In this document: positions 9,506 through 22,714 of the stretch, piece after piece
How positions within the stretch are numbered: position 1 is the stretch's first letter
How the letters are laid out: every line of letters begins with the position of its first letter
IMG/VR virus record: IMGVR_UViG_3300009788_001279
Coordinates: 1-35,865 of that record
DNA from: a virus
Reading direction: 5' to 3' (one strand)
DNA: 35,865 bases
The notes under the pieces: model-generated
Database searches by the model: none
Told to the model about the DNA's origin: nothing
The model's input: only the letters and a program-made list of their open reading frames with translations
Position numbers and translations under genes: made by a program

Positions 9506-9708
9506 TCGTTTATTTTATTACTATAGAAGTTTAAGCTACTAACCCCTGCAATAATGCTTTGATCTTGTATAGAATTGATAACACCTTTACGAAAATCAAT
9601 AACAAGCCTTGTAGTAAGACTCTTTTCTCTAATCTCAACAGTACGTTTATCAAGGTATTCCAAATAAATATCTTGCAATTTGTTTTCTATCCCAATATCT
9701 TTTCCCAT
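9502..9708 (-). CDS. Small protein of unknown function (68 aa)
   Basis: This 68-residue protein begins MGKDIGIENKLQDIYLEYLDKR, a charged amphipathic helix, followed by TTRLVIDFRKGVIN, which looks like a beta strand and turn. It overlaps the end of the preceding glycosyltransferase by 22 bases and the next gene by four, which supports translation. No family is recognised. Confidence 0.62.
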   Translation of the reverse strand: MGKDIGIENKLQDIYLEYLDKRTVEIREKSLTTRLVIDFRKGVINSIQDQSIIAGVSSLNFYSNKINE

Positions 9709-10676
9709 TTTTTAATCTGTTTTTTCATATCAAAATTCTTTTTAACGTATTTCTTATTCCTAAGAATACTCTTCTTGCCTTTGAATGTATCTTGCCCCAC
9801 CTGCTGTCCTATTAATGCATCAAAGTCGATAAAGTCATTTACTGTTTCTTGCATACCTCCGAGTCTCCTCACAACCGGGATACATTCACAGTACTGAGCT
9901 TTTACAGCATTGATACAGAACAACTCATTGCGTGGTGCATTGCATGGCAAACACCAATAGTCTGACTTCCAATATAACTTACATAGATCATCGTTAGTAA
10001 GTCTACCAAGCATTTCAATTCCTTCCTGTTCCATTAGTGTGTTCATGTACTCCTTCCATTTCTGAGCATTTGCATTTCCTTTATTAGCGAGGTCGTATGA
10101 TTCCCATCCATAAGTGATATATAGCTTTTTCAAACTTAACTTCTCTTTAACAGTACCCCATACCTTAAGTAAGTCTTCTAGGCCACGATCAAGACTTGTC
10201 GAATACAACATGGTACCCTTTTCCTTCTTAACTTTGTTTCTATCAAGTCTTTCGTAGTCAGCCCAAATATATGTACGTTCGACTGGTATATTGGGTATAT
10301 TCATTTGTGATTTATGCCAATCACTAATAACCGATACGTTATCCACATTCTGGATATCAAGATCACTCCAGTCTTCTATATCAGCTGTCCAGTGTATGAT
10401 CTTTTCTGAGTTAATCGATTGGAGAAGAACCTGACGGTACTTGAATGATATGAATATATCCGAATGCTCCCATGGTTTAAACTTACGATAATCTTCGTAC
10501 TTAACACCATCGAATGTCCCATGTACACCGTTATGGTATATGGTGATGTCGTACTTTGGTGATAGTTCTCTTGCCCATTCAATTAGTTTCTCTTCACTTC
10601 CTCCTATACCAGTTTCAAGATCAGCTGCGGTCCATCCTTCAAATACTAGGTTAGTGTATACTCTTATTGTTTTCAT
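9687..10676 (-). CDS. GT4-type glycosyltransferase (329 aa)
   Basis: I chose ATG 10676-10674 (MKTIRVYTNL), which gives a typical first beta strand and overlaps the previous gene by 26 bases. The protein has a GT-B layout: an N-terminal half with TGIGGSEEKLIEWARELS (donor-side glycine turn), a linker, then YSTSLDRGLEDLLKVW and KLYITYGWESYD, and GRLTNDDLCKLYWKSDYWCLPC leading to the acceptor/donor pocket (NELFCINAVKAQ). It is clearly paralogous to the C-terminal domain of the 816-residue protein at 20264-22714. The likely role is transfer of a sugar made by this island; donor and acceptor are unknown. Confidence 0.85.
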   Translation of the reverse strand: MKTIRVYTNLVFEGWTAADLETGIGGSEEKLIEWARELSPKYDITIYHNGVHGTFDGVKYEDYRKFKPWEHSDIFISFKYRQVLLQSINSEKIIHWTADIEDWSDLDIQNVDNVSVISDWHKSQMNIPNIPVERTYIWADYERLDRNKVKKEKGTMLYSTSLDRGLEDLLKVWGTVKEKLSLKKLYITYGWESYDLANKGNANAQKWKEYMNTLMEQEGIEMLGRLTNDDLCKLYWKSDYWCLPCNAPRNELFCINAVKAQYCECIPVVRRLGGMQETVNDFIDFDALIGQQVGQDTFKGKKSILRNKKYVKKNFDMKKQIKKWEKILG

Positions 10677-10827
10677 TTTCCTTTGGTAGATCAAATAATA
10701 AATTCCCCTTATAAACATCTAGGCTTAATGCTTTGTGTAGACCTTCCCATACTCGTAGACCCATCTCTGCGCGTTTTTTCTGTCGCATCCTTTCTATCTC
10801 TTTAAACTGTGACCTATATGTCTTCAT
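10651..10827 (-). CDS. Small basic helical protein (58 aa)
   Basis: The start ATG 10827-10825 overlaps the methyltransferase stop as ATGA, giving 58 residues beginning MKTYRSQFKEIERMRQKKRAE. The first half is a highly charged helix; the second has VYKGNLLFDLPKE. It overlaps the following glycosyltransferase gene. Function unknown; the tight overlaps on both sides argue that it is translated. Confidence 0.6.
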   Translation of the reverse strand: MKTYRSQFKEIERMRQKKRAEMGLRVWEGLHKALSLDVYKGNLLFDLPKENENNKSIH

Positions 10828-11438
10828 TTGGTCTTTACTATTATACAAAGCTGATCATCACGTCTCACAGATTCTATAATAGTACCGTAATTACTCATAA
10901 AGTCATCAAGTTCTTCCTTGCTATAAAGCCTCACATGCTCCTGGTTTCTATCAGCATCTCGTATACCATGACGGCCATCAATATCCGGCGTTGAGATCAA
11001 TACATACCTACCCGCCTTAGTTAACTTATCCATAAGCTTTGTAGGACTGACAACATGTTCTAGCACCTCCATACAGCTCACCGTATCAGCTATGATTCCC
11101 TCTGGTAACTGTTCGCCAGTACCAACGATGAATGTAACCTCAAGCCCTGCTTCTCTAGCTTTTAACTTAGCCTCATCAATAGCATCCTCGCTTGGATCTA
11201 TACCAACACATTCAATACCTTCGGCAGATAATGTGATACATTCGTAACCGTCTTTACAGCCTACACTGATGTGTGACCTACTAGCGATCTCGTGCACCCA
11301 ATTACGCATCCATGCAACACGATCAAGCATTTTATGTGCATGTAATGACTGCTCTAATGGCATAAAGTTACCATCTGATTTCGCGTAGTATTCTTTATTT
11401 TTTTGTGGATCTAGTAACTCTTTATTTTTTGTTTTCAT
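10824..11438 (-). CDS. SAM-dependent methyltransferase, class I (204 aa)
   Basis: This 204-residue protein has the Rossmann methyltransferase motifs. A glycine-poor motif I reads ISVGCKDGYE, the post-I acidic loop reads CVGIDPSEDAIDEA, motif II/III contains TFIVGTGEQLPEG, and motif IV reads VSCMEVLEHVVSPTKL, as in Methyltransf_11/25 enzymes. The segment LISTPDIDGRHG follows as motif V. The first Gly of motif I is replaced (VGCKDG), close to the variation seen in UbiE-like enzymes. It is coupled to the split transketolase C gene by a 17-base overlap. It probably methylates a sugar or glycan hydroxyl; the substrate is inferred only from context. Confidence 0.83.
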   Translation of the reverse strand: MKTKNKELLDPQKNKEYYAKSDGNFMPLEQSLHAHKMLDRVAWMRNWVHEIASRSHISVGCKDGYECITLSAEGIECVGIDPSEDAIDEAKLKAREAGLEVTFIVGTGEQLPEGIIADTVSCMEVLEHVVSPTKLMDKLTKAGRYVLISTPDIDGRHGIRDADRNQEHVRLYSKEELDDFMSNYGTIIESVRRDDQLCIIVKTK

Positions 11439-11988
11439 ATTTTCCTTTGTAATAATCTACATGTCCCCCTTCAGTGGGGTATTTATCTTTAATATGTAAG
11501 TTGGTTTCGAATTCCCTGTTTTCACCAAAGCGACCAACACGTAAGTACTTAGGTCGTGTTACTTCTTTCTTTACCTCAGCAATCAGGTCTTCCTTAGTAT
11601 CAGGTGTTACAACATCTATATTCAACAATGAATTCATAATCTGTTCATCTTCAATAGCAAAGTGACTAACTCCATGTTGCTCATAATCAAAGCCCGTACC
11701 TACGCCAATAACAGTTACCGGCAAATCCATTACGCATAAATCAAGCTTAATTTCTTCAACACATTTCAGATAGAAACAACACATGGTGTAGGTATATACC
11801 TTCTTTCCTGATAATGCGAGTCCTGCAGCGATATTAATCATTGATGATTCCGCTATACCTATGTTGATAAGACGATCCCCCATAACTTCCTGCAATGGTT
11901 CTAGCAGTCCAAAGCCCACATCAGCTGTTAAGAAGTATGTATTTTCGTCATCTTGTTTTATAAGTTGATTGATTAGTGTTCTTCTCAT
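11422..11988 (-). CDS. Transketolase C-terminal-type subunit, pyrimidine-binding domain only (188 aa)
   Basis: Residues 1-~150 match the transketolase Pyr domain. TADVGFGLLEP and RLINIGIAESSMINIAAGLALSGKKV contain the conserved catalytic Glu (GIAE) that activates thiamine diphosphate. TVIGVGTGFDYEQHGVSHFAIEDEQIM carries the expected G...H...ED motif, and VVTPDTKEDLIAEV follows. Usual C-terminal subunits run to about 300 residues with a third domain. This one stops after the Pyr domain, followed by a short tail, so the family's last domain is absent. It should work with the N-terminal subunit at 12753-13517 to transfer a two-carbon ketol unit. The gene starts at an ATGA overlap. Confidence 0.85.
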   Translation of the reverse strand: MRRTLINQLIKQDDENTYFLTADVGFGLLEPLQEVMGDRLINIGIAESSMINIAAGLALSGKKVYTYTMCCFYLKCVEEIKLDLCVMDLPVTVIGVGTGFDYEQHGVSHFAIEDEQIMNSLLNIDVVTPDTKEDLIAEVKKEVTRPKYLRVGRFGENREFETNLHIKDKYPTEGGHVDYYKGKYENKK

Positions 11989-12182
11989 AATCCTTTTGTA
12001 ATTAACTTAGGTTCCGGATCTGGAACTAATACTTCAGAAGTATAATGATCATTCTCCCAGTACATTAGTCTATACATTGATCCTTCTTGATATACCCCAA
12101 CAAATTCAATGTTAGCATGATTTATAAAATCTTCCAGGTCTTTAACATCGAATAACCTAGCATGGAACTTAGGTGGATTCAT
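11985..12182 (-). CDS. Small protein between the transketolase subunits (65 aa)
   Basis: This 65-residue protein begins MNPPKFHARLFDVKDLEDFIN and has an alternating strand pattern (IEFVGVYQEGSMYRLMYWEN). It is joined to both neighbours by ATGA overlaps. I do not recognise a family; similar one-domain small proteins are common in phages. Confidence 0.65.
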   Translation of the reverse strand: MNPPKFHARLFDVKDLEDFINHANIEFVGVYQEGSMYRLMYWENDHYTSEVLVPDPEPKLITKGL

Positions 12183-12769
12183 TGCTTAATAATCTCAAAT
12201 AAACCATATTGACCTTCACGCCATAGCTCCACTTTATAACCTCGCTCTGTACAAAATTCATCAACAGCCCTTGTTACACCATCATGGCCATAGTCATGAC
12301 CAATGATATGATCAGTTACGATATCAGCCATGAGTAGTTCCATCAAAAGTGTTTGATATCGATGATCGCCATCTATCCATACGATATCGAATTCGTGACT
12401 TAACACAACTGATATCGAATCCCAACCTAACGATCTTGATTGTATGACTTCCATGTAGTTAGCATAGTCACCAACGTTCTCAAGTAGTAGGCTCTTAGGA
12501 TGTGGTTGATACCCCCAGGCAGTATCTTCTTTTTCAAAGTCTTCAAATATGTCTACGATATAATGCTTGCCACCACGTGTGTTTTCTTTCTCATGTTTGT
12601 CCATCATTGCACCAAACAAATAGCTCGTCATTCCTTTGTACGCTCCTATCTCAAGAGTATTTCCACCCTGGTACTTTTCATTGATATAGTTCCAGATTAA
12701 CTCTAGCTCACCTATAAGCATCTGCTTGTCTTCATTGAGTGCATGAGCTTCGTTAATCACGTTGTTCAT
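12179..12769 (-). CDS. Class I SAM methyltransferase, Methyltransf_24-like (196 aa)
   Basis: Motif I is GNTLEIGAYKGMTSYLFG (residues about 36-53), followed by an acidic strand end YIVDIFEDFE. The family's metal/substrate block IVWIDGDHRYQTLLMELLMA is at about 128-147, then IIGHDYGHDGVTRAVDEF. These features match the O-methyltransferase group that includes macrocin/CmcI-like and Methyltransf_24 enzymes. The gene overlaps the transketolase N gene by 17 bases. A sugar O-methyltransferase role is likely from its context. Confidence 0.83.
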   Translation of the reverse strand: MNNVINEAHALNEDKQMLIGELELIWNYINEKYQGGNTLEIGAYKGMTSYLFGAMMDKHEKENTRGGKHYIVDIFEDFEKEDTAWGYQPHPKSLLLENVGDYANYMEVIQSRSLGWDSISVVLSHEFDIVWIDGDHRYQTLLMELLMADIVTDHIIGHDYGHDGVTRAVDEFCTERGYKVELWREGQYGLFEIIKQ

Positions 12770-13517
12770 CTTCTCTCTGTTCCTCTAATAGTTTAAATTT
12801 TTTATTTCTTTCTTTAGTTAGTGTCTCAACTTGAGCGTCAAGTTCTTTGTCTCTCTTATCAATGACAGGATATTCCTTCATCCAGATATCGTAAACCTCT
12901 TGAGTCACTTTAGTATAGTGTGATTCCATAGTTCCTGCAATATCGCCCCAGGCTTCACCCTTTGTACCATTAAATGTTTGAAACCAGTTATGGCTGAATA
13001 AATTTAGATCTTCTCGCCTGCTCTCACTAAATGCTTGAAGTCGGTTATGGTCTACTACAACTATAATATTGTTTAGCTTTAACTTGTTTGCTATCTTTAA
13101 AGACGAAAGCGTAGGGCCGCAGTCTAGTTCACCATCACTCATATAAACAACCACCAACCTATCCGGATTGGCAATTGCATATCCAATACCAATGCCAAGG
13201 CCGTGACCCAAGCTTCCAGTTGATGCATAAATACCATACTTTTTACTAAGTGTTGAATGTTCACTGAGTCCTCCGTCTTGGTAGTAAGTATCCAATACTT
13301 CGTCTGGTAATATACCAAGTTCATTGAGTATTACGTACTGAGCAAGAACACCATGCCCTTTTGAGACAATATGGATATAGTCAGGGCTTTGATTGTACAT
13401 TCTACACAAAGGACGTACCAGTGTGAGAGCCGAGGCGATATGACCAACCCCGGTCTTTAATCCGATATCCATGATACGTTGTTTAATCTTGCCGTAATCT
13501 AACTTTTTCTTCGACAT
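12753..13517 (-). CDS. Transketolase N-terminal-type subunit, TPP-binding (254 aa)
   Basis: The N-terminal ~190 residues match the transketolase thiamine-diphosphate domain: LKTGVGHIASALTLVRPL, IVSKGHGVLAQY, the STGSLGHGLGIGIGYA block, and the Mg/TPP motif MSDGELDCG...VVVDHN. In the Mg motif the usual GDG is SDG, a mild departure. The last ~45 residues form a charged coiled coil (ELDAQVETLTKERNKK), unusual for this subunit. The partner C-terminal subunit is two genes downstream. Split transketolases are known in special sugar and antibiotic pathways. Confidence 0.85.
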   Translation of the reverse strand: MSKKKLDYGKIKQRIMDIGLKTGVGHIASALTLVRPLCRMYNQSPDYIHIVSKGHGVLAQYVILNELGILPDEVLDTYYQDGGLSEHSTLSKKYGIYASTGSLGHGLGIGIGYAIANPDRLVVVYMSDGELDCGPTLSSLKIANKLKLNNIIVVVDHNRLQAFSESRREDLNLFSHNWFQTFNGTKGEAWGDIAGTMESHYTKVTQEVYDIWMKEYPVIDKRDKELDAQVETLTKERNKKFKLLEEQREDEQRD

Positions 13518-13608
13518 AATCTATTTCTATTGGTTTAGGTTGTTGCCAGAAACAGCTACCACGTTTAGTATTCGTGATACCCGTTATATAACATTTGAAT
13601 ATATTCAT
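13483..13608 (-). CDS. Tiny overlapping ORF (41 aa)
   Basis: ATG 13608-13606 overlaps the preceding 22-residue ORF's stop as ATGA, and the frame ends 35 bases inside the transketolase N gene. The 41 residues begin MNIFKCYITGITNTKRGS and contain two Cys and a WQQPKP turn. It fills an otherwise empty gap in a compact operon, which favours translation, but it could be only a coupling peptide. Confidence 0.45.
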   Translation of the reverse strand: MNIFKCYITGITNTKRGSCFWQQPKPIEIDYVEEKVRLRQD

Positions 13609-13673
13609 TTCTTTTTCTTTCCTCCTTTACTTCTTTTAGTTCTTTTTGTTTTCCCTCCGCTTAGATGTGGCAT
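13605..13673 (-). CDS. Tiny highly basic ORF (22 aa)
   Basis: ATG 13673-13671 lies six bases after the stop of the epimerase gene. The frame gives 22 residues, MPHLSGGKTKRTKRSKGG followed by four Lys, and ends in an ATGA overlap with the next ORF. The peptide is almost entirely Lys/Arg/Gly/Ser/Thr. It could be a nucleic-acid-binding peptide or a leader without function. Confidence 0.4.
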   Translation of the reverse strand: MPHLSGGKTKRTKRSKGGKKKK

Positions 13674-13679
13674 AATTAT

Positions 13680-14498
13680 TTATACATTAAGTAATTGCTT
13701 CATTTTATCCGTATTGGCACTCCAATGTCTAGGCTCATATTGTGATTGTTTATAAGTTCCCCAAATCACTTCTGCTAATCCATGGTCAATATTGTCTACC
13801 ACCCTCATATTGGACTGTTGATACCCACTACCTACATTGATAACCTCGCCATATATATGAGAAGAGTGTATGAGCCTTTCGATGGCAACGCAAACCGTAT
13901 TGATAGGTATATAATCTCTTGTATTTGTAGAAGCTGCAAAGCCCTTCATGTCTGTATCACCTCTTACTGCAGATTCGTATATGTTCTTGAAACTATGGCC
14001 CCCTTCACCCGTAACCGTGAATAACCTCAAAGTATTAAATCCCAGCTTCTTAGCATATAAAGTGACCATTAGCTTAGCTACTCCGTATGTATTAATAGGC
14101 TCACATATCATATCTTCTTTCATAGGCTCGTCCTTCACACCATACTCAGATGATGACCCTAAATTGATAACCGGTATTCCTCTATCTTTACATTGTTGTA
14201 GGAAGTTACAACTAAGTTCTGCAAACTCTAGATGCTTTGGTGCATGTAGGTCTTTTTCTCTTAGCCATGCACAGTGTACTACGATATCAGGTTTCCTTTT
14301 AGGAACAGCCACTGTGTTCGTACTCTTATCGTAAATTTCAACAGGTCTTAATAGTTGGTAATTATCCAACCTACTCCAATCTTCTTTCATAAACTCTTTA
14401 GTACTAATCGTATCTACCTCGTAGTTAAGTTCGCCTAAGTATTTCATTAAGTGCCCCCCTATGAAACCTGTTGACCCGCTAATGAGAATATTTGTCAT
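13680..14498 (-). CDS. Extended SDR: NAD(P)-dependent sugar epimerase/reductase (272 aa)
   Basis: The nucleotide-binding motif GSTGFIGGHL lies at residues 8-17. NLGSSSEYGVKDEPMKED carries the catalytic Ser/Thr region, and TYGVAK is the YxxxK catalytic pair. TRDYIPINTVCVAIERLI is the usual SDR substrate-domain helix. SSSEYG and PMxE are features shared with 4-keto-sugar reductases such as CDP-abequose and CDP-paratose synthases (RfbJ/RfbS), but with general epimerases too. Next to an RfbH-type dehydrase, a role as C4 reductase or epimerase on the deoxygenated sugar is attractive; this is inference. At 272 residues it is short for an extended SDR (usually 290-350). Confidence 0.85.
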   Translation of the reverse strand: MTNILISGSTGFIGGHLMKYLGELNYEVDTISTKEFMKEDWSRLDNYQLLRPVEIYDKSTNTVAVPKRKPDIVVHCAWLREKDLHAPKHLEFAELSCNFLQQCKDRGIPVINLGSSSEYGVKDEPMKEDMICEPINTYGVAKLMVTLYAKKLGFNTLRLFTVTGEGGHSFKNIYESAVRGDTDMKGFAASTNTRDYIPINTVCVAIERLIHSSHIYGEVINVGSGYQQSNMRVVDNIDHGLAEVIWGTYKQSQYEPRHWSANTDKMKQLLNV

Positions 14499-14704
14499 TG
14501 TTTCCTCCCTATGTGAAAAAATTTACAGAACTTACATTTATATGACTTCACGATATCGGGTTTACTCTCTGTTACTATTTTAGCTTCCTTGCGAGTATTA
14601 TACCTAAGTTTCCCATAACATGATGCTAGCTCTAGGTTTGTGGTGGTGTTACCCTTTCGCTTCTGCTGTCTTATCCACTTTTTCTTACCTATCTTGCCAA
14701 TCAT
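14495..14704 (-). CDS. Small zinc-ribbon-like protein (69 aa)
   Basis: A basic N-terminus (KIGKKKWIRQQKRKG) is followed by ASCYGKLRYNTRKEA and a YKCKFCKFFHIGRK end. The Cys, CxxC and His pattern fits the small phage/bacterial zinc ribbons with a K-x-Y...A core and a C-terminal Y-x-C-x-x-C-x-x-F/W-H-x-G-R. Both ends overlap neighbours by four bases. Such proteins bind zinc and perhaps nucleic acid; no direct role in sugar metabolism is apparent. Confidence 0.68.
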   Translation of the reverse strand: MIGKIGKKKWIRQQKRKGNTTTNLELASCYGKLRYNTRKEAKIVTESKPDIVKSYKCKFCKFFHIGRKQ

Positions 14705-15945
14705 ATATACCTATCTAAAAAGTTAGTAATAACATTCTTCATATGAGCACGTTCCTTCTTGCCAATAGCAGGATGCACACCAATCCAAAATGCATTCATC
14801 ATTATATCATTACTTACCTCGAAACTTTCCGCTACTCTATAACCACTCTTCTTCCACAACACAGGCTGTCTTGTTATGTTTCCACAAAAGAATGCTCTAC
14901 TTTGAATTCCATATTCTTCTAAATACTTAACCATATCATCTTTTAAGAATGGTGCTGCCGGTTTTAGTTTCACCACATAACCGAACCAACTTGGTTTAGA
15001 CTGTGGATAAGATGTGGGTAGGTCAAACCATTGTTCATAGTTTGCAAAGACCCCTTTAAGAAAGGCATGATTCTTCCTTCGGGTTTTAACAAACCCCGGC
15101 AATCGTTTCATCTGTTCCACTCCTAGTGCTGCTGATATATCAGTACCTTTTAAATTAAACCCCATCTCGGAAAATGTATTCTTATGATCATATCCATGAG
15201 GCAGCCCACCTAGTTGATGCTCGTATCTAATACCACATGTGTTATCACATCCAGGAGCGCACCAGCACTCGCGGCCCCAGTTCACAATAGAAGTTATAGC
15301 TCTGTGTAGTATCGGGTCATTTGTATAAACAGCACCACCTTCACCTACCGAAATCTGATGTGCAGGATAGAAACTCGATGTTCCTATATCTCCTATTGAT
15401 CCCGTTCTTTGCCCTTCCCATTCACCACCTAAGCAATCGCAATTATCTTCTATCACCCATAACCTATGCCTTTCAGCAAGCTCCATAATAGCATCCATAT
15501 CAGAGGGATTACCTAAGTTATGTGCAAACATAAGAGCTCTGGTTTTTGGCCCTATCATATCTTCGACTTGCTTGATATCAATACTCCACTTATCATCTAC
15601 ATCAACAAACGTAGGGATAGCACGTGCGTAATATATTGGTGATACAGTTGTAGGAAAACATAACGCTGGTGTAATAACTTCATGCTTAGGAAGCAATCTC
15701 CTATCTTTATCTATCCATTGAGTAGTTAAAGCCATGATAGCTGCAAGATTGGCACTGGATCCACTATTAGTCAACGTGACATACCTGACACCTAAATACT
15801 TCGAAAGCTTTCTTCTGAACTGTGCAGCCCACGGTCCTTCTGCCCAACGTCCGCTTTGTATCGCCTGCGTAGCAGCATCTATTTCTTCTTGTCCATGCAC
15901 TTGCTGTGCTGGGTTTATTATAATGTTATTTGTTTTTGTATCCAT
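14701..15945 (-). CDS. rfbH: RfbH/E1-type nucleotide-sugar 3-dehydrase (PMP and [2Fe-2S])
   Basis: This 414-residue DegT/DnrJ-fold protein is close in pattern to RfbH (CDP-4-keto-6-deoxyglucose 3-dehydrase, E1). The PLP lysine is replaced by His196 in SSFYPAHQISVGEGGAVY, the hallmark change that turns an aminotransferase into a C3-deoxygenating enzyme. The iron-sulphur motif is complete: C169, C227, C229 and C237 follow the E1 spacing C-X57-C-X-C-X7-C (region WGRECWCAPGCDNTCG). ITPALCFPTTVSP, ALMFAHNLGNPSDMDAI and FCGNITRQPVLWK are also E1-like. In known pathways E1 removes the C3 hydroxyl with an E3 reductase, en route to 3,6-dideoxyhexoses. No E3, cytidylyltransferase or 4,6-dehydratase gene is seen here. 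The start overlaps the epimerase gene by 28 bases. Confidence 0.93.
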   Translation of the reverse strand: MDTKTNNIIINPAQQVHGQEEIDAATQAIQSGRWAEGPWAAQFRRKLSKYLGVRYVTLTNSGSSANLAAIMALTTQWIDKDRRLLPKHEVITPALCFPTTVSPIYYARAIPTFVDVDDKWSIDIKQVEDMIGPKTRALMFAHNLGNPSDMDAIMELAERHRLWVIEDNCDCLGGEWEGQRTGSIGDIGTSSFYPAHQISVGEGGAVYTNDPILHRAITSIVNWGRECWCAPGCDNTCGIRYEHQLGGLPHGYDHKNTFSEMGFNLKGTDISAALGVEQMKRLPGFVKTRRKNHAFLKGVFANYEQWFDLPTSYPQSKPSWFGYVVKLKPAAPFLKDDMVKYLEEYGIQSRAFFCGNITRQPVLWKKSGYRVAESFEVSNDIMMNAFWIGVHPAIGKKERAHMKNVITNFLDRYI

Positions 15946-16880
15946 TCGTAAGTGATCTTCATACCGGCTTTAAATTTCATCTTAGGTTGCCAGCCTATAC
16001 TCATAATTTTATCTTTACTGAAGCTACGATTTGCCACACCAACGGGACCATCAATATACTTCTTCTCTATTTCTTTTCCCGAAATACTAATTACTGTATC
16101 AGTAAGTTTCTCAACTGTTACCTCATCATAAGTTCCTATGATCGTTGGTCCTTCAAGATCTGACCTCATGAGTTTGATAACACCATCAACAAGATCATTT
16201 ATGTATACGAAGTTCCTCATAGCTGACCCATCACCCCATACTTCAACTGAATCACCATCTTGCGCGCGTATAGCCTTGCGACATATAGCAGCGGGTGCTT
16301 TCTCTCTACCACCATCCCATGTACATTCAGGACCATAGACGTTTTGAAACCGTGCAACCCGTACCTTTGTATTAAATTGCCGTCCGTAAGCTTCGACTAC
16401 TCGCTCTGAATATAGTTTTTCCCATCCATACTCATTGTCTGGATTAGCGGGGTATGCATCGCTTTCGTCTAATGTTTCTCCTTGTTTCACATCTCGGTAT
16501 ACACACACCGAACTTGAGTAGAAGTATCGTGCAACCTTCGCCTCAGTAGCAGCTTTGATCATATTAATATTAATCAGTGCATTATTAGTTAGACAGTCAA
16601 CCTCGTTACTTCCTATGAACCCCATGCCACCCATATCTGCTGAAAGTTGATACACCTCATCAAACTTGGGTGAATTATATCTGTACTCTCTTAGAACATG
16701 TACAGCATCTTGACAGTTCTTATAATCTCTCAGATCTAATTGTAAGAACTCATCCGCATCTGTATACGGATACTCTTTGATATCCACAACTCTAACCCAG
16801 TTATCTGGATTCTCTTTTAGTTTTCTTACTAGGTGATGGCCTACGAAGCCCGATCCACCCGCAACTAAAATTCTTTTCAT
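15918..16880 (-). CDS. GDP-mannose 3,5-epimerase-like SDR (320 aa)
   Basis: I chose ATG 16880-16878 (MKRILVAGGSGFVGHHL), one base after the previous stop. The GGSGFVG motif binds NAD. The protein matches GDP-mannose 3,5-epimerase (GME) strongly: SADMGGMGFIGSN (about 80-92), SSSVCVYRD with Cys126 at the position of GME's catalytic Cys, YGWEK with Tyr151/Lys155, and GGREKAPAAICRKA with Lys194 at the catalytic Lys. Lys155 to Lys194 spacing (39) equals that in plant GME. GME epimerises C3 and C5 of GDP-D-mannose to give GDP-L-galactose or GDP-L-gulose. The phage enzyme may act on GDP-mannose or a relative; the substrate is inferred. Confidence 0.87.
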   Translation of the reverse strand: MKRILVAGGSGFVGHHLVRKLKENPDNWVRVVDIKEYPYTDADEFLQLDLRDYKNCQDAVHVLREYRYNSPKFDEVYQLSADMGGMGFIGSNEVDCLTNNALININMIKAATEAKVARYFYSSSVCVYRDVKQGETLDESDAYPANPDNEYGWEKLYSERVVEAYGRQFNTKVRVARFQNVYGPECTWDGGREKAPAAICRKAIRAQDGDSVEVWGDGSAMRNFVYINDLVDGVIKLMRSDLEGPTIIGTYDEVTVEKLTDTVISISGKEIEKKYIDGPVGVANRSFSKDKIMSIGWQPKMKFKAGMKITYEWIQKQITL

Positions 16881-16881
16881 C

Positions 16882-17082
16882 TTATTCCTCCATAAAGTAA
16901 TACGAATCTGCTGGTATCCACTTACCATCCAGCTTAATCTGACATTGAGACCAAAAGTCGTACTTGTTTTCAAATGAACTGTACTTGTTCTGGCATGTAC
17001 GATTATCCGTATATACAATCGACCCACCACATACACTTAGTATAAATACTAATGCACATAATGCAAGGATGATATCCTTCAT
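16882..17082 (-). CDS. Small membrane-anchored or exported protein (66 aa)
   Basis: An N-terminal hydrophobic segment (IILALCALVFILSVCGGSI, about residues 4-22) is followed by a polar domain with two Cys (RTCQNK and WSQCQIK) and LDGKWIPADSYYF. The pattern of a single membrane segment plus a small WxxCxxxxxGKWIP domain resembles small phage proteins of unknown role. SVCGG is not a clean lipobox, since Val precedes the Cys. It is joined to the preceding gene by an ATGA overlap. Confidence 0.68.
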   Translation of the reverse strand: MKDIILALCALVFILSVCGGSIVYTDNRTCQNKYSSFENKYDFWSQCQIKLDGKWIPADSYYFMEE

Positions 17083-17885
17083 AACCTGTCATAAAACTTA
17101 TCTAAAATAACTGATTCGATCTTTGCACATTGTGCAGACATTGAGTATTGTTGTACTTTCTCTTGAGCATTGTTAATCTGCTTAGTGATTACCGTGGAAC
17201 CCATTTTGTCCAAAAGCTCATCCAAGGTATTCCAGTATATAAAGTGCTCATGTTCTACAAAGCCAAGTTTCTCAATAAGATCAGTCTTTAGTCTTTTTTG
17301 AAATAAAGCTGCTCCTACAGCCATAGCTTCAAAGAACCTATTGTTAAGTATCATATCCCATGGCTCTGTAGGTTGATTTACTACAAATAGTGATCTGTTC
17401 ATTATATTAATATATTCACCCTTACTCTCTGCTTTACCAGTAAAGCAATCTGAATACTTAGCATGTAGCCGCGCCCATAGCTCTTTACGCTCTTCACTAT
17501 TAGGATGGCCTATCATTGCAACACTGTACTTATTATTACTAAAAGCTTTAACAAGATTATCATTGTAAGTAATTGGCATCAGAAGACTCTCCACGCCAAA
17601 CTTCTCCAAGATCTTCACACCATGCTCATAGTTACTACTAAACGTAAGGTCACATTTTCTAGCAATGTTAACTGACCTTTCGGCACCACCTGGCATATGA
17701 CTATCCATTGACCAAAATACTTTTAGACAGTCAGGACACTTTGGGATTCTATCCGAAAAGTCTTCACTACAATCCGCAAATAGTATAAAATCATATGACT
17801 CAGGGTTGATTATAATATCCTTCCGATCAATCCTGTCTATTGTATGCCCATTAGCTTCGAAGCCATCAGCAATCCATTCTGCCAT
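17079..17885 (-). CDS. Glycosyltransferase, probably frameshifted at its 5' end (268 aa from the internal ATG)
   Basis: From ATG 17885 the protein reads MAEWIADGFEANGHTID and has a GT-B-like layout: FILFADCSEDF, KVFWSMDSHMPGGAERS, SVAMIGHPNSEERKELWARL and NRFFEAMAVGAALFQKR, the last matching the donor-site helix of GT4/CgeB-like enzymes. The first beta strand is missing from this start. Another ATG at 17925, four bases after the previous stop, encodes MRIAVW and then goes out of frame. Skipping one base near 17905-17911 would join it as MRIAVWYTDWYGSMAEW, a normal glycosyltransferase start. A one-base insertion or sequencing error is likely; programmed shift is possible. Confidence 0.78.
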   Translation of the reverse strand: MAEWIADGFEANGHTIDRIDRKDIIINPESYDFILFADCSEDFSDRIPKCPDCLKVFWSMDSHMPGGAERSVNIARKCDLTFSSNYEHGVKILEKFGVESLLMPITYNDNLVKAFSNNKYSVAMIGHPNSEERKELWARLHAKYSDCFTGKAESKGEYINIMNRSLFVVNQPTEPWDMILNNRFFEAMAVGAALFQKRLKTDLIEKLGFVEHEHFIYWNTLDELLDKMGSTVITKQINNAQEKVQQYSMSAQCAKIESVILDKFYDRL

Positions 17886-18377: not shown

Positions 18378-18496
18378 TCAGAGTATACAAATGTAATAAA
18401 ATGTTCATCATCACCAGGGGCTATGCCGAAACTTGGTCCATATCGGGCATTTAATAACGCAAGAGCAATGAATAACTTTCTGTGTGTAGGTCTCAT
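18374..18496 (-). CDS. Tiny protein (40 aa) between overlapping genes
   Basis: ATG 18496-18494 overlaps the methyltransferase stop (AAATGA), and the TGA at 18376-18374 overlaps the next ATG. The 40-residue product begins MRPTHRKLFIALALLNARYG, mildly hydrophobic, and ends with an acidic GDDEHFITFVYSE tail. The perfect chain of ATGA overlaps on both sides is good evidence for a real gene despite its size. Function unknown. Confidence 0.6.
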   Translation of the reverse strand: MRPTHRKLFIALALLNARYGPSFGIAPGDDEHFITFVYSE

Positions 18497-19077
18497 TTCC
18501 ACCCCCTCATCCCAATTGCAGGATAATCGTTAATATTATCTAGATCTTCAATATCATTAAAACCCGCCATAGTAAAGAATGCTCTTAGGCTTTGTGATGT
18601 ATATCCAGATCGATGTAATCCGTACTTATTCTTTTGACTACCAAACAGTTGACGTATACACCAATCCATCTCACCTTCTTCGTTATATAAATCAATGATG
18701 CCCTTTATGTCTGGTACGTGTACTCGCAACGAACCACCTGGTTTTAATAAATCCCGCCAATGTCTTAGTAGTTGTGCGCCTTCTTCGAACGTGAAGTGCT
18801 CAAGGATATGCATGCCAATAATCTCATCTATAGAACCATGCTCGTATGGTAGGTCACTTACATCTGCAAATCTATCGCAAACTACTTTCTTCATGTGATA
18901 CTTACCAGTCATAAAGTCACTCTTTGTAACATTATCTTTGTAGTACTTATCCATCGTTGTTATATTCTCCTGCACAAGATCGGGTCTATCTTCAGCAAGA
19001 AAGTGATGTGATAATTCAAGATCGATGTTTTCGCATCCATATAGATAAACTGTACCGCATGCTAAGTGTAACTTCAT
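18493..19077 (-). CDS. SAM-dependent methyltransferase (194 aa), polysaccharide-cluster type
   Basis: Motif I is MKLHLACGTVYLYGCENIDLE at the very N-terminus, as in the predicted methyltransferases of polysaccharide clusters (COG4627-like). DLPYEHGSIDEIIGMHILEHF is motif IV with the EHF signature, LLKPGGSLRVHVPDIKG is motif V/VI, and a C-terminal segment has HRSGYTSQSLRAFFTMAGF. The gene starts 2 bases after the stop of a 27-residue membrane peptide. It probably modifies a sugar or glycan made by this island. Confidence 0.84.
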   Translation of the reverse strand: MKLHLACGTVYLYGCENIDLELSHHFLAEDRPDLVQENITTMDKYYKDNVTKSDFMTGKYHMKKVVCDRFADVSDLPYEHGSIDEIIGMHILEHFTFEEGAQLLRHWRDLLKPGGSLRVHVPDIKGIIDLYNEEGEMDWCIRQLFGSQKNKYGLHRSGYTSQSLRAFFTMAGFNDIEDLDNINDYPAIGMRGWK

Positions 19078-19079
19078 TA

Positions 19080-19163
19080 TTAAAGTATTAAAAGTATTGC
19101 CAAAGTAAAAGCTAATAAGACATCAATACTAAGAACTGTAACTATAGTAGTCTTATCTTTCAT
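19080..19163 (-). CDS. Tiny single-pass membrane peptide (27 aa)
   Basis: ATG 19163-19161 overlaps the stop of the upstream glycosyltransferase as ATGA, and the frame ends at TAA 19082-19080, two bases before the next ATG. The 27-residue product is MKDKTTIVTVLSIDVLLAF followed by TLAILLIL: a short basic N-terminus and one uninterrupted hydrophobic helix. It fits a small membrane protein that could anchor a sugar-modifying complex or act on the membrane. Position and coupling support it. Confidence 0.6.
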   Translation of the reverse strand: MKDKTTIVTVLSIDVLLAFTLAILLIL

Positions 19164-19843
19164 TTCTCTGTATATCGATAATCTAAGTTCATATTATTAA
19201 ATGGGTACCTAAACGTTTCACTGTTAGCATCGCCACCCCACTTTGAGAGGTATCTACGTAGGTAAAACCGTAATCTATCATCATCGTTCCCTATAGTTCC
19301 TGCATATGGTGGATGATACCAAAGTACTACGTCCGGCTGTATAACGTCATATCCGGCTAGCTTACATCTATATATATAGTCGCGCTCTACAAACTCAACC
19401 GGTAAATATTCGTCAATCCTACCAACATCTTCAATAACACCCTTTCGTAACAAGAAACACGCGGGGTCAATCAAACCACTAGTAAGTTCTTTAGTGTACT
19501 TACGTTTACTGGACTTCTTCATAAATCTATTATAGTTCCGATCAACCTTGCCCGTAATTAGAGCCGAGTCTGGATTATCTTCTGCACATCGAACCATGTA
19601 ATCAATCGCATTTGGATCAGCTACAGTATCGTTAGCCGTAATCATCAAGTAGTCATATTCTTTCCCACGCCATGCATCTAAGAACTTATTCCACACACCC
19701 GCTACCCTTGTATCATACCGTTCATTATCTTCTATAACCTCAATGTCATTATCTTTGGTTATAAGTGAGTTCCTACATTCATCAGTCATTTGAACCTGTT
19801 CAGGCGTGTCTAATAATGCTGGTAGTAGTATCTTAATCTTCAT
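19160..19843 (-). CDS. GT2/GT-A-type glycosyltransferase (227 aa)
   Basis: I chose ATG 19843-19841 (MKIKILLPALLDTPEQ), which gives a proper first strand and overlaps the previous gene's end. YDYLMITANDTVADPNAIDYM carries the nucleotide-sugar/metal site, with AND in place of a classic DxD. LTSGLIDPACFLLRKGVIEDVGRID and EFVERDYIYRCKLAGYDVIQPDVVLWYHPPY match the acceptor-side ED-type motif (here ERDY) of family 2 enzymes. At 227 residues it is compact. The likely role is sugar transfer to a glycan; donor unknown. Confidence 0.8.
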   Translation of the reverse strand: MKIKILLPALLDTPEQVQMTDECRNSLITKDNDIEVIEDNERYDTRVAGVWNKFLDAWRGKEYDYLMITANDTVADPNAIDYMVRCAEDNPDSALITGKVDRNYNRFMKKSSKRKYTKELTSGLIDPACFLLRKGVIEDVGRIDEYLPVEFVERDYIYRCKLAGYDVIQPDVVLWYHPPYAGTIGNDDDRLRFYLRRYLSKWGGDANSETFRYPFNNMNLDYRYTEK

Positions 19844-20084
19844 GCTTTTCTTGTGGATGTACCTCGGTATGCAATAAATTAGCTTTATTAATAATATGCA
19901 TGACTCCATTCACATCAGTTATCTTTAACATCTCACTCTCGCAGATCGATTCACTAATAAGGTTCTTAACTGTCTTCTTTACTCCACCCTTATATATGAA
20001 TATCTGTGTGGTAAGTTTTCCTATGTAATTCACGCTTGATCTTAGATTAATATTATTATTTGGTTTTAACTTTAAGTCCGTCAT
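19833..20084 (-). CDS. Small protein of unknown function (83 aa)
   Basis: This 83-residue protein begins MTDLKLKPNNNINLRSSVN and has a beta-rich core (TTQIFIYKGGVKKTVKN, MLKITDVNGVMHIINKANL) that looks like a small OB- or SH3-like barrel. It overlaps genes on both sides by 11-29 bases. No family is recognised. Confidence 0.62.
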   Translation of the reverse strand: MTDLKLKPNNNINLRSSVNYIGKLTTQIFIYKGGVKKTVKNLISESICESEMLKITDVNGVMHIINKANLLHTEVHPQEKHED

Positions 20085-20263: not shown

Positions 20264-22714
20264 TTAATTATTATTAAACTCCTCATCCCATTGCTTAGCA
20301 AGCTTTGCCATATCATACTGCTTTCTTGACCATTTCATAAGTGGCGTACGTTTCTTCTCAAGCTCATTCTGATTCTTTAGTAAGTGGATAGTAGCATCTG
20401 CAATAGATGAAAGATCTACCTTTACACCGTACTTAGTACTCACCGTTTCGTTTAGAGCCGCATGTGGTGTACAAACAGGTACCGCACCCATTGATTGTGC
20501 AATCATGGCACCAATACAGGAGATCTCGTAGAACTCTGTTGGATAGATCCATATAGAAGACTCAGCTGCTAACTTATGGTGTTCGCCTTGGGTGACACGC
20601 CCGAGTTCTTGTACGCCTTCGCTATTAGCAATCATCTCAACCATCTTGGATTTAAAGTTTCGCATCCAATTTCCGCTCTCGGTCCCTTCTCGGCTATTCA
20701 TTAGTTTATCAAAAGTATTCCATCCGTATATAATCTTGAGCGTAGCTTCAGGCACTTCCTTTCTAATAGACGGCCACATCTCAAGTAGATTATCAAGCCC
20801 TCTATCATATGAGGAAGCATAAAACAACTGATATGGATTACGGGCAATAGTAGGCTTTGCCATAGAATCAGTAGCACTAAGGGCTACAGCTTTCTGCTCA
20901 TCCGCCCACTTCATAGCCAATGAATTCAAACCATTACTAGTCATGAAGAATATATCTTCATCTTCTATGCCATGGCTTTTCTTAATAACATCTTTATGTG
21001 CCTGACTAAGCACTATTCCTTTATCAGCTGAATAGAATATTGAAGCGTTAACATCTCCATAATGAGTATCATGTAACCATAGGTATTGTTTTTTAGCTTT
21101 TATGATCTTGGTAAATACATCCGGTCGTCTTAGTGATACGAATACATCACACTTCATTTCAGTATCCCATTTGCGATAGTCTTCATATCGTACACCATAG
21201 AACTCTTTGCCTGCAGCATTACCACATTGATTGTAAATAACTACTTTATTATCGAGTTTCACAAGTTCTCGTGCTATCTGTATTGTCATACCTTCGCTAC
21301 CACCAATGCCCTCCTTTATATCGCTCTCGCCATTCCACTCTCCAATCCCTTCGCCGGCCCATATGACAATAGACTTACTACCACTTAACTTTACTTTACG
21401 AGTCTTACGTCTATAATCATGCATGCTTTCCTCAATAATCCTTCTAACTGTTGGATCATCTAGCAAATCGATAGGAATGGCTTCACGTAATCTATCAGCA
21501 TGATTCATGTTATTGCCCGATTGTAAATAACGCATGATATGGTTTATACCATTGATCGCTTGATTCCTTAGAATATCCTTCTCAATCATAAACTTCTCTT
21601 GCTTAACGTTCTCATCACCTGTCATCTGTAGTAACTCATTAATAAGCTCTGAAGCTTGTTCTATCATTCCTTTTTGTAAATACGCATTAATCTTAATACG
21701 TCTTGGAAGTATGACATATTCTAACTCATTAATTGGCAATGTAGTGTTAGGCAAGTCCCTTCCTAAAACCTTATCAGCATAATGAATTGCTTCATCCCAT
21801 TCACCAAGCGTTGTGTATGCCTCGGCCAGTATAATGTATGAATCTGAAAATGCATTATCGTACTGCAATGCCATGCTCGCGCTCGCAATAGCCTTGTCGA
21901 GTTCCCCTAAGCTCATATATGCACGTGCCATTTTAATATGCACTTGATATAGAATCCCTTTATTGTCAGTCTTTCTATCGAGGTATAATTGGTAGTACTT
22001 CAAAGCTTGTTCGTATTCTTTATGCTCCCAAAAGTCATATGCATAGTGGCTAAGCATTTCATTATCCATATTTTTAATACCTTCTTCTTCCTCCTGCGCT
22101 TTCATTATTAAATGATTACGTCTACCTGTCTCTAGTACATTTTCATTCTCTCGCTCATGCTGTACATAAACCTGGTCGTTTTCAAATACGTTCACCCTTT
22201 GTTCAGCCTTAAAGTTCTCATGTACACGATTGGCCCACTTACCTTTAATACTTAAATCTATTATTCGTTCTCTTTTCTGAACAACAGGCTTGAGGTTGCC
22301 ATCACCTTTGGCGTATACGTATGTTAGTACACAAAAGTGAAGATTCTCATTGTTCATTTGTTCGACTAGAATGGGAATACCTTCAGGGTTTACAAGTACA
22401 TCATCTGAGTCAATCCAGAACGCATAGTTAGCTTTAGCCTTTTTAGCTAGTTTAAATGAATCATTTCGTGGGGATGCAAAATCTCCTAGTATCTTGTGTC
22501 CATTGACTTCAACAAACTTATAATCGGGGTTTACTTTAACATGGAATTCTTTAACATTATACTTACACCAGTCCTTCCAGACTTGCACGGTATTATCAGA
22601 AGATCCAGTATCAACTAGGCAATAAGCATCAAAAATACCTTTTGTGGAGTTTAGGGTACGTATGATCTGCTTTTCACGATCCTTAGCGATCATACAGAGA
22701 GCAACTTTGTTCAT
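20264..22714 (-). CDS. Three-domain glycosyltransferase: GT2, TPR, GT4 (816 aa)
   Basis: The N-terminal ~190 residues are a GT-A (family 2) domain: KVALCMIAKDREKQIIRTL, CLVDTGSSDNT, then FWIDSDDVLVNPEG with the DxD metal site at about 102-105. The middle (about 205-380) has TPR repeats (EQALKYYQLYLDRK, ARAYMSLGELDKAIASA, LAEAYTTLGEWDEAIHYA). The C-terminal ~370 residues are a GT-B (family 4) domain: SIVIWAGEGIGEWNGES, GIGGSEGMTIQIAREL, YASSYDRGLDNLLEMWP, IYPTEFYEISCIGAMIAQS. SunS-like GT2-TPR proteins are known, and a GT4 extension makes a bifunctional enzyme that could add two sugars in sequence. It is the first gene of the island, after a promoter-like site. Confidence 0.9.
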   Translation of the reverse strand: MNKVALCMIAKDREKQIIRTLNSTKGIFDAYCLVDTGSSDNTVQVWKDWCKYNVKEFHVKVNPDYKFVEVNGHKILGDFASPRNDSFKLAKKAKANYAFWIDSDDVLVNPEGIPILVEQMNNENLHFCVLTYVYAKGDGNLKPVVQKRERIIDLSIKGKWANRVHENFKAEQRVNVFENDQVYVQHERENENVLETGRRNHLIMKAQEEEEGIKNMDNEMLSHYAYDFWEHKEYEQALKYYQLYLDRKTDNKGILYQVHIKMARAYMSLGELDKAIASASMALQYDNAFSDSYIILAEAYTTLGEWDEAIHYADKVLGRDLPNTTLPINELEYVILPRRIKINAYLQKGMIEQASELINELLQMTGDENVKQEKFMIEKDILRNQAINGINHIMRYLQSGNNMNHADRLREAIPIDLLDDPTVRRIIEESMHDYRRKTRKVKLSGSKSIVIWAGEGIGEWNGESDIKEGIGGSEGMTIQIARELVKLDNKVVIYNQCGNAAGKEFYGVRYEDYRKWDTEMKCDVFVSLRRPDVFTKIIKAKKQYLWLHDTHYGDVNASIFYSADKGIVLSQAHKDVIKKSHGIEDEDIFFMTSNGLNSLAMKWADEQKAVALSATDSMAKPTIARNPYQLFYASSYDRGLDNLLEMWPSIRKEVPEATLKIIYGWNTFDKLMNSREGTESGNWMRNFKSKMVEMIANSEGVQELGRVTQGEHHKLAAESSIWIYPTEFYEISCIGAMIAQSMGAVPVCTPHAALNETVSTKYGVKVDLSSIADATIHLLKNQNELEKKRTPLMKWSRKQYDMAKLAKQWDEEFNNN

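Follow-up and report, generated by a model that had tools for sequence, protein, structure and literature searches.

The window analysed here is the whole of a 35,865 nt stretch from an uncultivated phage whose head is of the Mu-like type (IMG/VR record IMGVR_UViG_3300009788_001279). Between positions 11422 and 15945 it carries genes for an E1-type 3-dehydrase (RfbH), an SDR (SDR1), the two halves of a split transketolase (TktN and TktC) and a SAM methyltransferase of the Methyltransf_24 type (MT24). An earlier reading made without database searches, called the sequence-only reading below, had taken this group as a possible phage pathway for a deoxygenated, C2-branched and methylated sugar. 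All of the named genes were found to be intact open reading frames with these boundaries on the minus strand, where the other window genes given with coordinates below also lie, and they are matched by the corresponding profiles. The further methyltransferase gene said to overlap tktC was likewise found; it is of the Methyltransf_23 type (MT23) and the overlap amounts to 17 nt.

RfbH (14701..15945, 414 aa) passes the NCBIfam RfbH equivalog model NF011936 with 502 bits at a cut-off of 423 and matches the solved E1 structures 3bcx and 3bb8 with 362 and 358 bits, respectively. As in a PMP-type enzyme, the PLP lysine is replaced by a histidine, His196, which is invariant across 131 aligned sequences. 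The [2Fe-2S] cysteines of E1 enzymes follow the spacing C-X57-C-X-C-X7-C. Cys169, Cys227, Cys229 and Cys237 of RfbH have exactly this arrangement, which is conserved with the E1s. Judged by its sequence, the window RfbH is thus a true [2Fe-2S] E1-type 3-dehydrase.

SDR1 (13680..14498, 272 aa; PF01370, 79 bits) is an extended SDR of the reductase/epimerase type with the active-site motif GSSSEYG..YGVAK. A 4,6-dehydratase activity of SDR1 was considered and rejected, because the T/S-D-E triad of the dehydratases is missing. A second SDR gene, SDR2 (15918..16880, with the likely start ATG at 16880), encodes a protein resembling GDP-mannose 3,5-epimerase, which matches the solved enzyme 2c59 over the full length (247 bits over residues 3-318). 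It is regarded as accessory and is not part of the cassette in the related phage L224 described below.

MT24 (12179..12769; PF13578) lies between tktN and tktC, and MT23 (10824..11438; PF13489, 61 bits) is followed by a GT-B glycosyltransferase of the Glycos_transf_1 type (9687..10718; PF00534). Upstream of SDR2, a glycosyltransferase-like protein (17079..17885; PF13524), a SAM methyltransferase of the Methyltransf_11 type (18493..19077; PF08241), a GT2-like glycosyltransferase (19160..19909; a weak PF00535 match just below the cut-off) and a large two-domain glycosyltransferase with TPR repeats (20264..22714; PF00535, TPR and Glyco_trans_1_4; PHROG 13126 and 2170) are encoded. A 4,6-dehydratase, a cytidylyltransferase and an E3 reductase were not found in the window, so that the host would have to supply them. 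In particular, rfbF and rfbG, which stand for CDP-glucose and the 4,6-dehydratase in a yersiniose-type pathway, are absent from the window, and the E3 partner gave no Pfam match among the larger window reading frames that were scanned.

The split mini-transketolase and its viral relatives

TktN (12753..13517, 254 aa) is the compact PP-domain half of the transketolase and scores above the gathering score of PF00456, and TktC (11422..11988, 188 aa) is the Pyr-domain half (PF02779, Transket_pyr, 60 bits). The AlphaFold models of the two chains have pLDDT values of 91 and 88, and their best PDB fold matches are 6yak chain AAA and 6yaj, respectively. In sequence as well as in fold, the closest solved relatives are the two chains of the split transketolase of C. 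hydrogenoformans, in which the PP and Pyr halves are also carried on separate chains. The claim that both transketolase halves are present therefore holds for the PP and Pyr domains, but both chains are reduced compared to the C. hydrogenoformans enzyme: an internal stretch of the PP domain is missing from TktN, and TktC stops after the Pyr domain, so that the second chain has no transketolase C-terminal domain.

The TPP/Mg and proton-relay residues are distributed over the two chains. In E. coli TktA numbering, TktN keeps the equivalents of H26, H66, H100, D155, N185 and H261, and TktC keeps those of R358, D381, E411, F437 and H473. The equivalents of H461 and D469, residues which E. coli TktA has and with which the characterised C. 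hydrogenoformans enzyme aligns, are lost. The TPP enzyme of the window is of the transketolase type and not a YerE-type decarboxylase. TktN also carries the substitutions G154S and E160C, the latter at a position where 46 of 47 minimal TktN proteins keep the glutamate; from the sequence, these two changes may lower its activity. In a first alignment the His261 segment of TktN appeared to be lost. Decay of the gene was rejected, since a fuller alignment of 47 minimal TktN proteins with E. coli TktA places a conserved histidine (‘xHY’) at this position.

Viral relatives were found with alignment queries alone; scans with the single TktN and TktC sequences matched none. Minimal split transketolases with a short TktN and a Pyr-only TktC occur in 48 of 81 viral loci, and in the transketolase tree the window enzyme falls into a virus-only group of such proteins. 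Seven scored catalytic, TPP and metal positions (H26, H66, H100, D155, G156, N185 and H261) are kept in 47/47 minimal TktN, and the five TktC residues listed above are kept in 49/49 minimal TktC. Of the clustered viral TktN genes, 80 in all, 38 have an SDR gene directly upstream, as do 34 of the 47 minimal ones, and the dehydratase triad is found in none of these 38 SDRs. Most phages with a minimal transketolase do not carry RfbH. As judged from these alignments and neighbourhoods, a virus-only lineage of minimal split transketolases, common in uncultured phages, retaining its catalytic residues and usually lying directly behind an SDR gene, is what is new here.

Conservation of the cassette and linkage of RfbH to transketolase

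The gene order RfbH-SDR1-TktN-MT24-TktC-MT23-GT4 is identical in the window and in two other IMG/VR phages, L223 and L224, with protein identities mostly between 44 and 62% (54 and 62%, respectively, for RfbH; 49-50% for SDR1). MT24 holds the same position in all three, and the place of the cassette, ahead of the head genes for a Mu-like protease and gpT, is also shared. The SDR1 motif recurs in the TktN-adjacent SDRs of L224 and of the Paenibacillus locus L171. L223 encodes its own TIGR01181-like 4,6-dehydratase with the catalytic triad. The glycosyltransferase-like protein and the Methyltransf_11 protein are conserved in L223 and L224, as are the GT2-like (53-60% identity) and the large two-domain (44-47%) glycosyltransferases. 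MT23 and the GT-B glycosyltransferase are shared in addition with L008, a 7.2 kb contig without RfbH or transketolase. The GC content is flat across the window (36-43%). An assembly of the cassette by chance was rejected because of this flat GC content and the order conserved in the two other phages, and the latter indicates that the cassette is maintained.

A search for conserved adjacency of rfbH, tktN, tktC and the SDR gene found co-occurrence in phages and in bacteria; the outcome named as refuting by the sequence-only reading, a transketolase that never occurs together with rfbH, did not appear. TktN and TktC lie within 10 kb of RfbH in 5 of 80 bacterial loci, compared to about 0.2-0.6 expected from genome density, in a strict count that leaves out L098 with its weak TktN 8 kb away. 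The gene order in Paenibacillus L171 is rfbH-rfbF-rfbG-SDR1-like-tktN-tktC, and RfbH is also accompanied by a split transketolase in the bacterial loci L097, L173, L174 and L110. Two plasmids carry rfbH-tktN-tktC (L092) and rfbF-rfbG-MT-SDR::TktN fusion-tktC (L096). Since full-length transketolase-type frames are present elsewhere in the five chromosomal RfbH-linked genomes (L171, L097, L173, L174 and L110), the split copy linked to RfbH looks specialised. The RfbH-linked transketolases are spread over several branches of the transketolase tree.

Among viral RfbH loci, 4 of 46 carry TktN and TktC, compared to 0 of 76 control loci centred on GDP-mannose dehydratase and lacking an E1 (Fisher p 0.019), a comparison that is weak because the four positive loci form one clade. 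In the control set, TktN and TktC occur only in a locus that also carries RfbH. The linkage of RfbH to transketolase is thus a minority association in bacterial as well as in viral RfbH loci.

A candidate route to a branched sugar and its alternatives

We give about even chances to the reading that the cassette encodes a nucleotide-deoxysugar pathway of the phage, in which the split transketolase serves to make a C2-branched sugar. Host enzymes, and in L223 its own 4,6-dehydratase, would supply a nucleotide-bound 4-keto-6-deoxyhexose, from which RfbH together with a host reductase would take off the C-3 oxygen. With a ketose phosphate or hydroxypyruvate as the donor, the minimal transketolase would then add a two-carbon ketol to the C-4 ketone of the sugar. 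SDR1 would reduce a carbonyl of the branched product, at least one methyltransferase would methylate the sugar, and the phage glycosyltransferases would transfer it to a protein of the virion or to a host surface glycan. In yersiniose-type pathways, too, reduction by an SDR would follow branching by the TPP enzyme.

The basis of this proposal is formed by the gene identities, the folds, the retained catalytic residues, the conserved order and the recurrent linkage of E1 and transketolase. With a maintained cassette and a combination of RfbH and split transketolase that recurs in bacteria and other phages, the pathway suggested by the sequence-only reading is plausible. Its E1 and transketolase are linked physically and evolutionarily (both are present in three of three members of the window clade), whereas we infer that the transketolase is the branching enzyme and the E1 product its acceptor, and likewise the order of the steps, the product, its methylation and the final target. 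A broader version is put forward more tentatively: uncultivated phages would share a lineage of two-chain transketolases, consisting of a PP core and a Pyr-only chain, which is coupled to a reductase-type SDR and makes C2-branched sugars from nucleotide keto sugars, and in the window branch an E1 would feed it, yielding a deoxygenated, branched and methylated sugar.

Minimal transketolases without RfbH are common and some lie beside heptose-type genes, so that a supply of sedoheptulose-7-phosphate for a phage nucleotide heptose is a real alternative, if an unlikely one; RfbH and SDR1 would then work on another sugar within this glycan. A PfkB kinase (HldE-like) and/or SIS_2 (GmhA-like) gene is found near the transketolase in 19 viral TktN loci, among them the minimal enzymes of L227 (with a nucleotidyltransferase), L246, L254 (with a GHMP kinase) and L290, and the equivalents of R358 and R520 are kept. 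However, GmhA/HldE-type queries had no match in the window, L223 or L224, in all three of which RfbH directly adjoins the SDR-transketolase block, and the equivalents of H461 and D469 are lost. It is rather improbable that the product of E1 and SDR1 is a common 3,6-dideoxyhexose and that TktN and TktC build another component of the same glycan, such as another ketose or a branched tetrose. SDR-mini-transketolase modules without RfbH in many phages fit such a division, as does the rfbF-rfbG-rfbH cluster of phage L002 (IMG/VR), where a head module contains deoxysugar genes, as in the window, but no transketolase; against it stand the combined block conserved three ways and the independent RfbH-transketolase operons of bacteria.

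Transketolase signatures in ocean viromes have been read as boosting the pentose phosphate pathway (PMC4053976), and an auxiliary metabolic gene serving nucleotide supply in this way is very unlikely here, as the genes are embedded in a glycan cassette and belong to a virus-only group, and the encoded enzyme has neither the C-terminal domain nor equivalents of H461 and D469. Least probable of all, we consider, are decaying or non-catalytic remnants: both chains are short and the window TktN carries E160C and G154S, but the scored residues are kept throughout the minimal proteins and the predicted folds are confident.

The logic of a yersiniose-like branched sugar is already known, and a transketolase-based phage version of it would be new. 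In the pathways to yersiniose A (RfbF-RfbG-RfbH and YerE) and erwiniose (ErwE), E1 makes a CDP-3,6-dideoxy-4-keto sugar which a TPP enzyme branches at C-4; YerE adds acetaldehyde to CDP-3,6-dideoxy-4-keto-glucose (PMC12247030). In contrast to the single-chain, decarboxylase-type YerE and ErwE, the window enzyme is two-chain, transketolase-type and phage-borne, without its own rfbF and rfbG. The two-subunit transketolase Rif15a/Rif15b of rifamycin biosynthesis has a comparably specialised role, transferring C2 units from F6P or X5P to a ketone in vitro (PMC6002545), but it is bacterial, its acceptor is rifamycin S and the product rearranges to an ester. For the split transketolases of miharamycin and amipurimycin, which belong to Streptomyces secondary metabolism, a hydroxyacetyl branch on a keto sugar is a proposal only. 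A literature search for RfbH with transketolase, or for comparable phage glycan pathways, yielded nothing relevant.

If the proposed pathway is correct, phages would have a previously unreported way of making C-branched deoxysugars, in which a transketolase reduced to the catalytic core takes the place of the decarboxylase-type TPP enzymes of known LPS pathways. Displayed by virions or on the surface of the host, such sugars could influence recognition and superinfection. An enzyme of two short chains would also be useful for testing which parts a transketolase needs. It might further serve as a biocatalyst in making tertiary alcohols, an application so far only proposed for split transketolases (PMC12247030). 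The gene beside the Pyr-only ‘putative transketolase’ of Campylobacter phages gave no Pfam match when checked for a PP domain, and neither RfbH nor a recognisable TktN accompanies this protein; in phages CP21 and WX1, however, the Pyr-only chain is found in cultured phages.

The cassette and its genes

The 35,865-base IMG/VR virus record carries phage structural genes (terminase, portal, tape-measure, Mu-like protease and gpT head), and its nearest annotated phages are distant: the terminase matches D3112-like phages and a Campylobacter phage at about 31%, and the head protein reaches 23-29%. Since the window is a fragment, missing genes may lie beyond its ends. The genes named in the sequence-only reading were all borne out as intact ORFs on the minus strand, namely RfbH (14701-15945), SDR1 (13680-14498), TktN (12753-13517), MT24 (12179-12769), TktC (11422-11988) and MT23 (10824-11438), and curated models confirmed their identities. 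Its model score, its solved relatives and its active-site residues all mark RfbH as a true E1-type enzyme; residue assignments here and below rest on alignments.

TktN (254 aa) and TktC (188 aa) have split transketolases as their best matches both by sequence and by predicted fold (TktN: pLDDT 91, best match 6yak; TktC: pLDDT 88, best match 6yaj). In a published split transketolase, the Pyr chain also bears a separate C-terminal domain, which is regarded as a later addition (PMC7661550), whereas the window TktC ends after its Pyr domain. In the alignment TktN shows the substitutions G154S and E160C, which might reduce its activity; Ser-154 is common in minimal TktN proteins (41/47), while Cys-160 occurs in the window alone among these 47. 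TktC and TktN match PHROG 23258 and PHROG 18761, respectively, two families of unknown function which are therefore likely to be transketolase halves. The dehydratase triad is absent from SDR1 and from all 38 SDRs directly upstream of viral TktN genes, some of which do not match the full active-site motif; SDR1 thus fits a reductase or epimerase.

The gene order GT(large)-GT2-MT11-GTx-RfbH-SDR1-TktN-MT24-TktC-MT23-GT4 (the last a Glycos_transf_1 glycosyltransferase, 9687-10718 in the window), followed by the Mu-like protease, is shared with two other IMG/VR phages, L223 and L224, L223 having an extra dehydratase gene between RfbH and SDR1. Identities to L223/L224 are 54/62% for RfbH, 49/50% for SDR1, 54/49% for TktN, 54/48% for TktC, 59/52% for MT23 and 57/52% for GT4. 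MT24 is 37% identical in L223; between TktN and TktC of L224 (7944-8180) just 49 residues match in a single frame (57%), so this gene may be broken, frameshifted or misassembled. Contig L008, closer to the window by terminase (64%), carries MT23 and GT4, and neither RfbH nor transketolase was seen within its 7.2 kb. Outside the shared block, a GDP-mannose 3,5-epimerase-like SDR gene (15918-16880) adjoins RfbH; Synechococcus phage S-H68 and marine virus AG-345-D19 have genes similar to it (41-43%) in the vicinity of DegT-type dehydrases.

Minimal split transketolases of viruses

An alignment scan of viral contigs yielded 211 stretches with a TktN relative, of which 80, the best-scoring matches rather than random draws, were kept. 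Together with the window, 48 of these 81 loci have a Pyr-only TktC. In all the minimal enzymes scored the catalytic positions are retained, with H461 lost and S385 often lost (E. coli TktA numbering). A 143-row tree places them apart from the bacterial enzymes and the full-size viral ones, only two label changes being needed, and groups the window, L223 and L224 in one clade (SH-aLRT 100). The tree search was quick and short, the root was placed at the midpoint and many branches are weak, so the minimal form is only suggested to have a single origin.

A module of SDR, minimal TktN and minimal TktC adjoins the major head protein gene in 18 loci (L228, L240, L245 and about 15 more) and is often accompanied by an FkbM-type methyltransferase (21 loci). 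In Campylobacter phages L088 (11911-12360) and L089 (11914-12363) a 'putative transketolase' consists of the Pyr domain alone, and no PP partner could be recognised beside it; the next ORF, of 520 aa, is without a Pfam match.

Linkage of RfbH and transketolase

Among the 80 best bacterial RfbH loci, taken by score and not at random, five have strong TktN and TktC within 10 kb, as compared to 0.2-0.6 expected from the density of split TktN measured in two phyla (Poisson P ≤ 4e-4, general sugar-gene clustering being ignored). In Paenibacillus L171 the order is rfbH-rfbF-rfbG-SDR-tktN-tktC, and the SDR has the active-site motif of SDR1. Linkage also occurs on a Desulfobaculum plasmid (rfbH-tktN-tktC, TktN apparently truncated) and on four related viral contigs with a larger TktC. 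In a Paenibacillus cellulosilyticus plasmid (L096 7882-9789) an SDR is fused to TktN next to rfbF-rfbG; the fusion gene is annotated as SDR only. The RfbH-linked transketolases are spread over several branches of the tree. Long transketolase-type frames elsewhere in all five genomes with chromosomal linkage suggest that the housekeeping role does not fall to the linked split enzyme. Another IMG/VR phage (L002 6795-9920) has a complete rfbF-rfbG-rfbH set without transketolase between portal and minor head genes.

Proposed keto-sugar branching and the heptose alternative

In a known route to a branched sugar, E1 makes a CDP-3,6-dideoxy-4-keto sugar to which YerE then adds a two-carbon unit (PMC12247030). 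Rif15, a transketolase of two subunits, directs C2 from F6P or X5P at a ketone in vitro (PMC6002545). Keto-sugar branching by split transketolases is an untested proposal (PMC12247030). The pathway logic is already known; for the use of a transketolase-type enzyme, its occurrence in a phage and its minimal form, no description was found in the literature searched. In the phage, the C-4 ketone of the E1 product would receive a ketol through the TktN/TktC pair; reduction of a carbonyl by SDR1 would follow, and methyltransferases and glycosyltransferases would finish and attach the sugar. Virion glycosylation is attractive because the cassette lies inside the head gene block; modification of the host surface is equally open.

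The main rival is that the transketolase could supply sedoheptulose-7-phosphate in loci with HldE- or GmhA-like genes, which occur near transketolase in 19 viral loci, some with minimal enzymes. Since the window, L223 and L224 gave no match to such genes, keto-sugar branching is favoured for this clade. Of the pathway in the sequence-only reading, the linkage of RfbH and transketolase is supported, while ketol addition to the E1 product stands, overall, about evenly balanced between right and wrong. The minimal transketolases of L227, L246, L254 and L290 adjoin HldE/GmhA-like genes and genes for sugar kinases, which suggests that these phages make heptoses.
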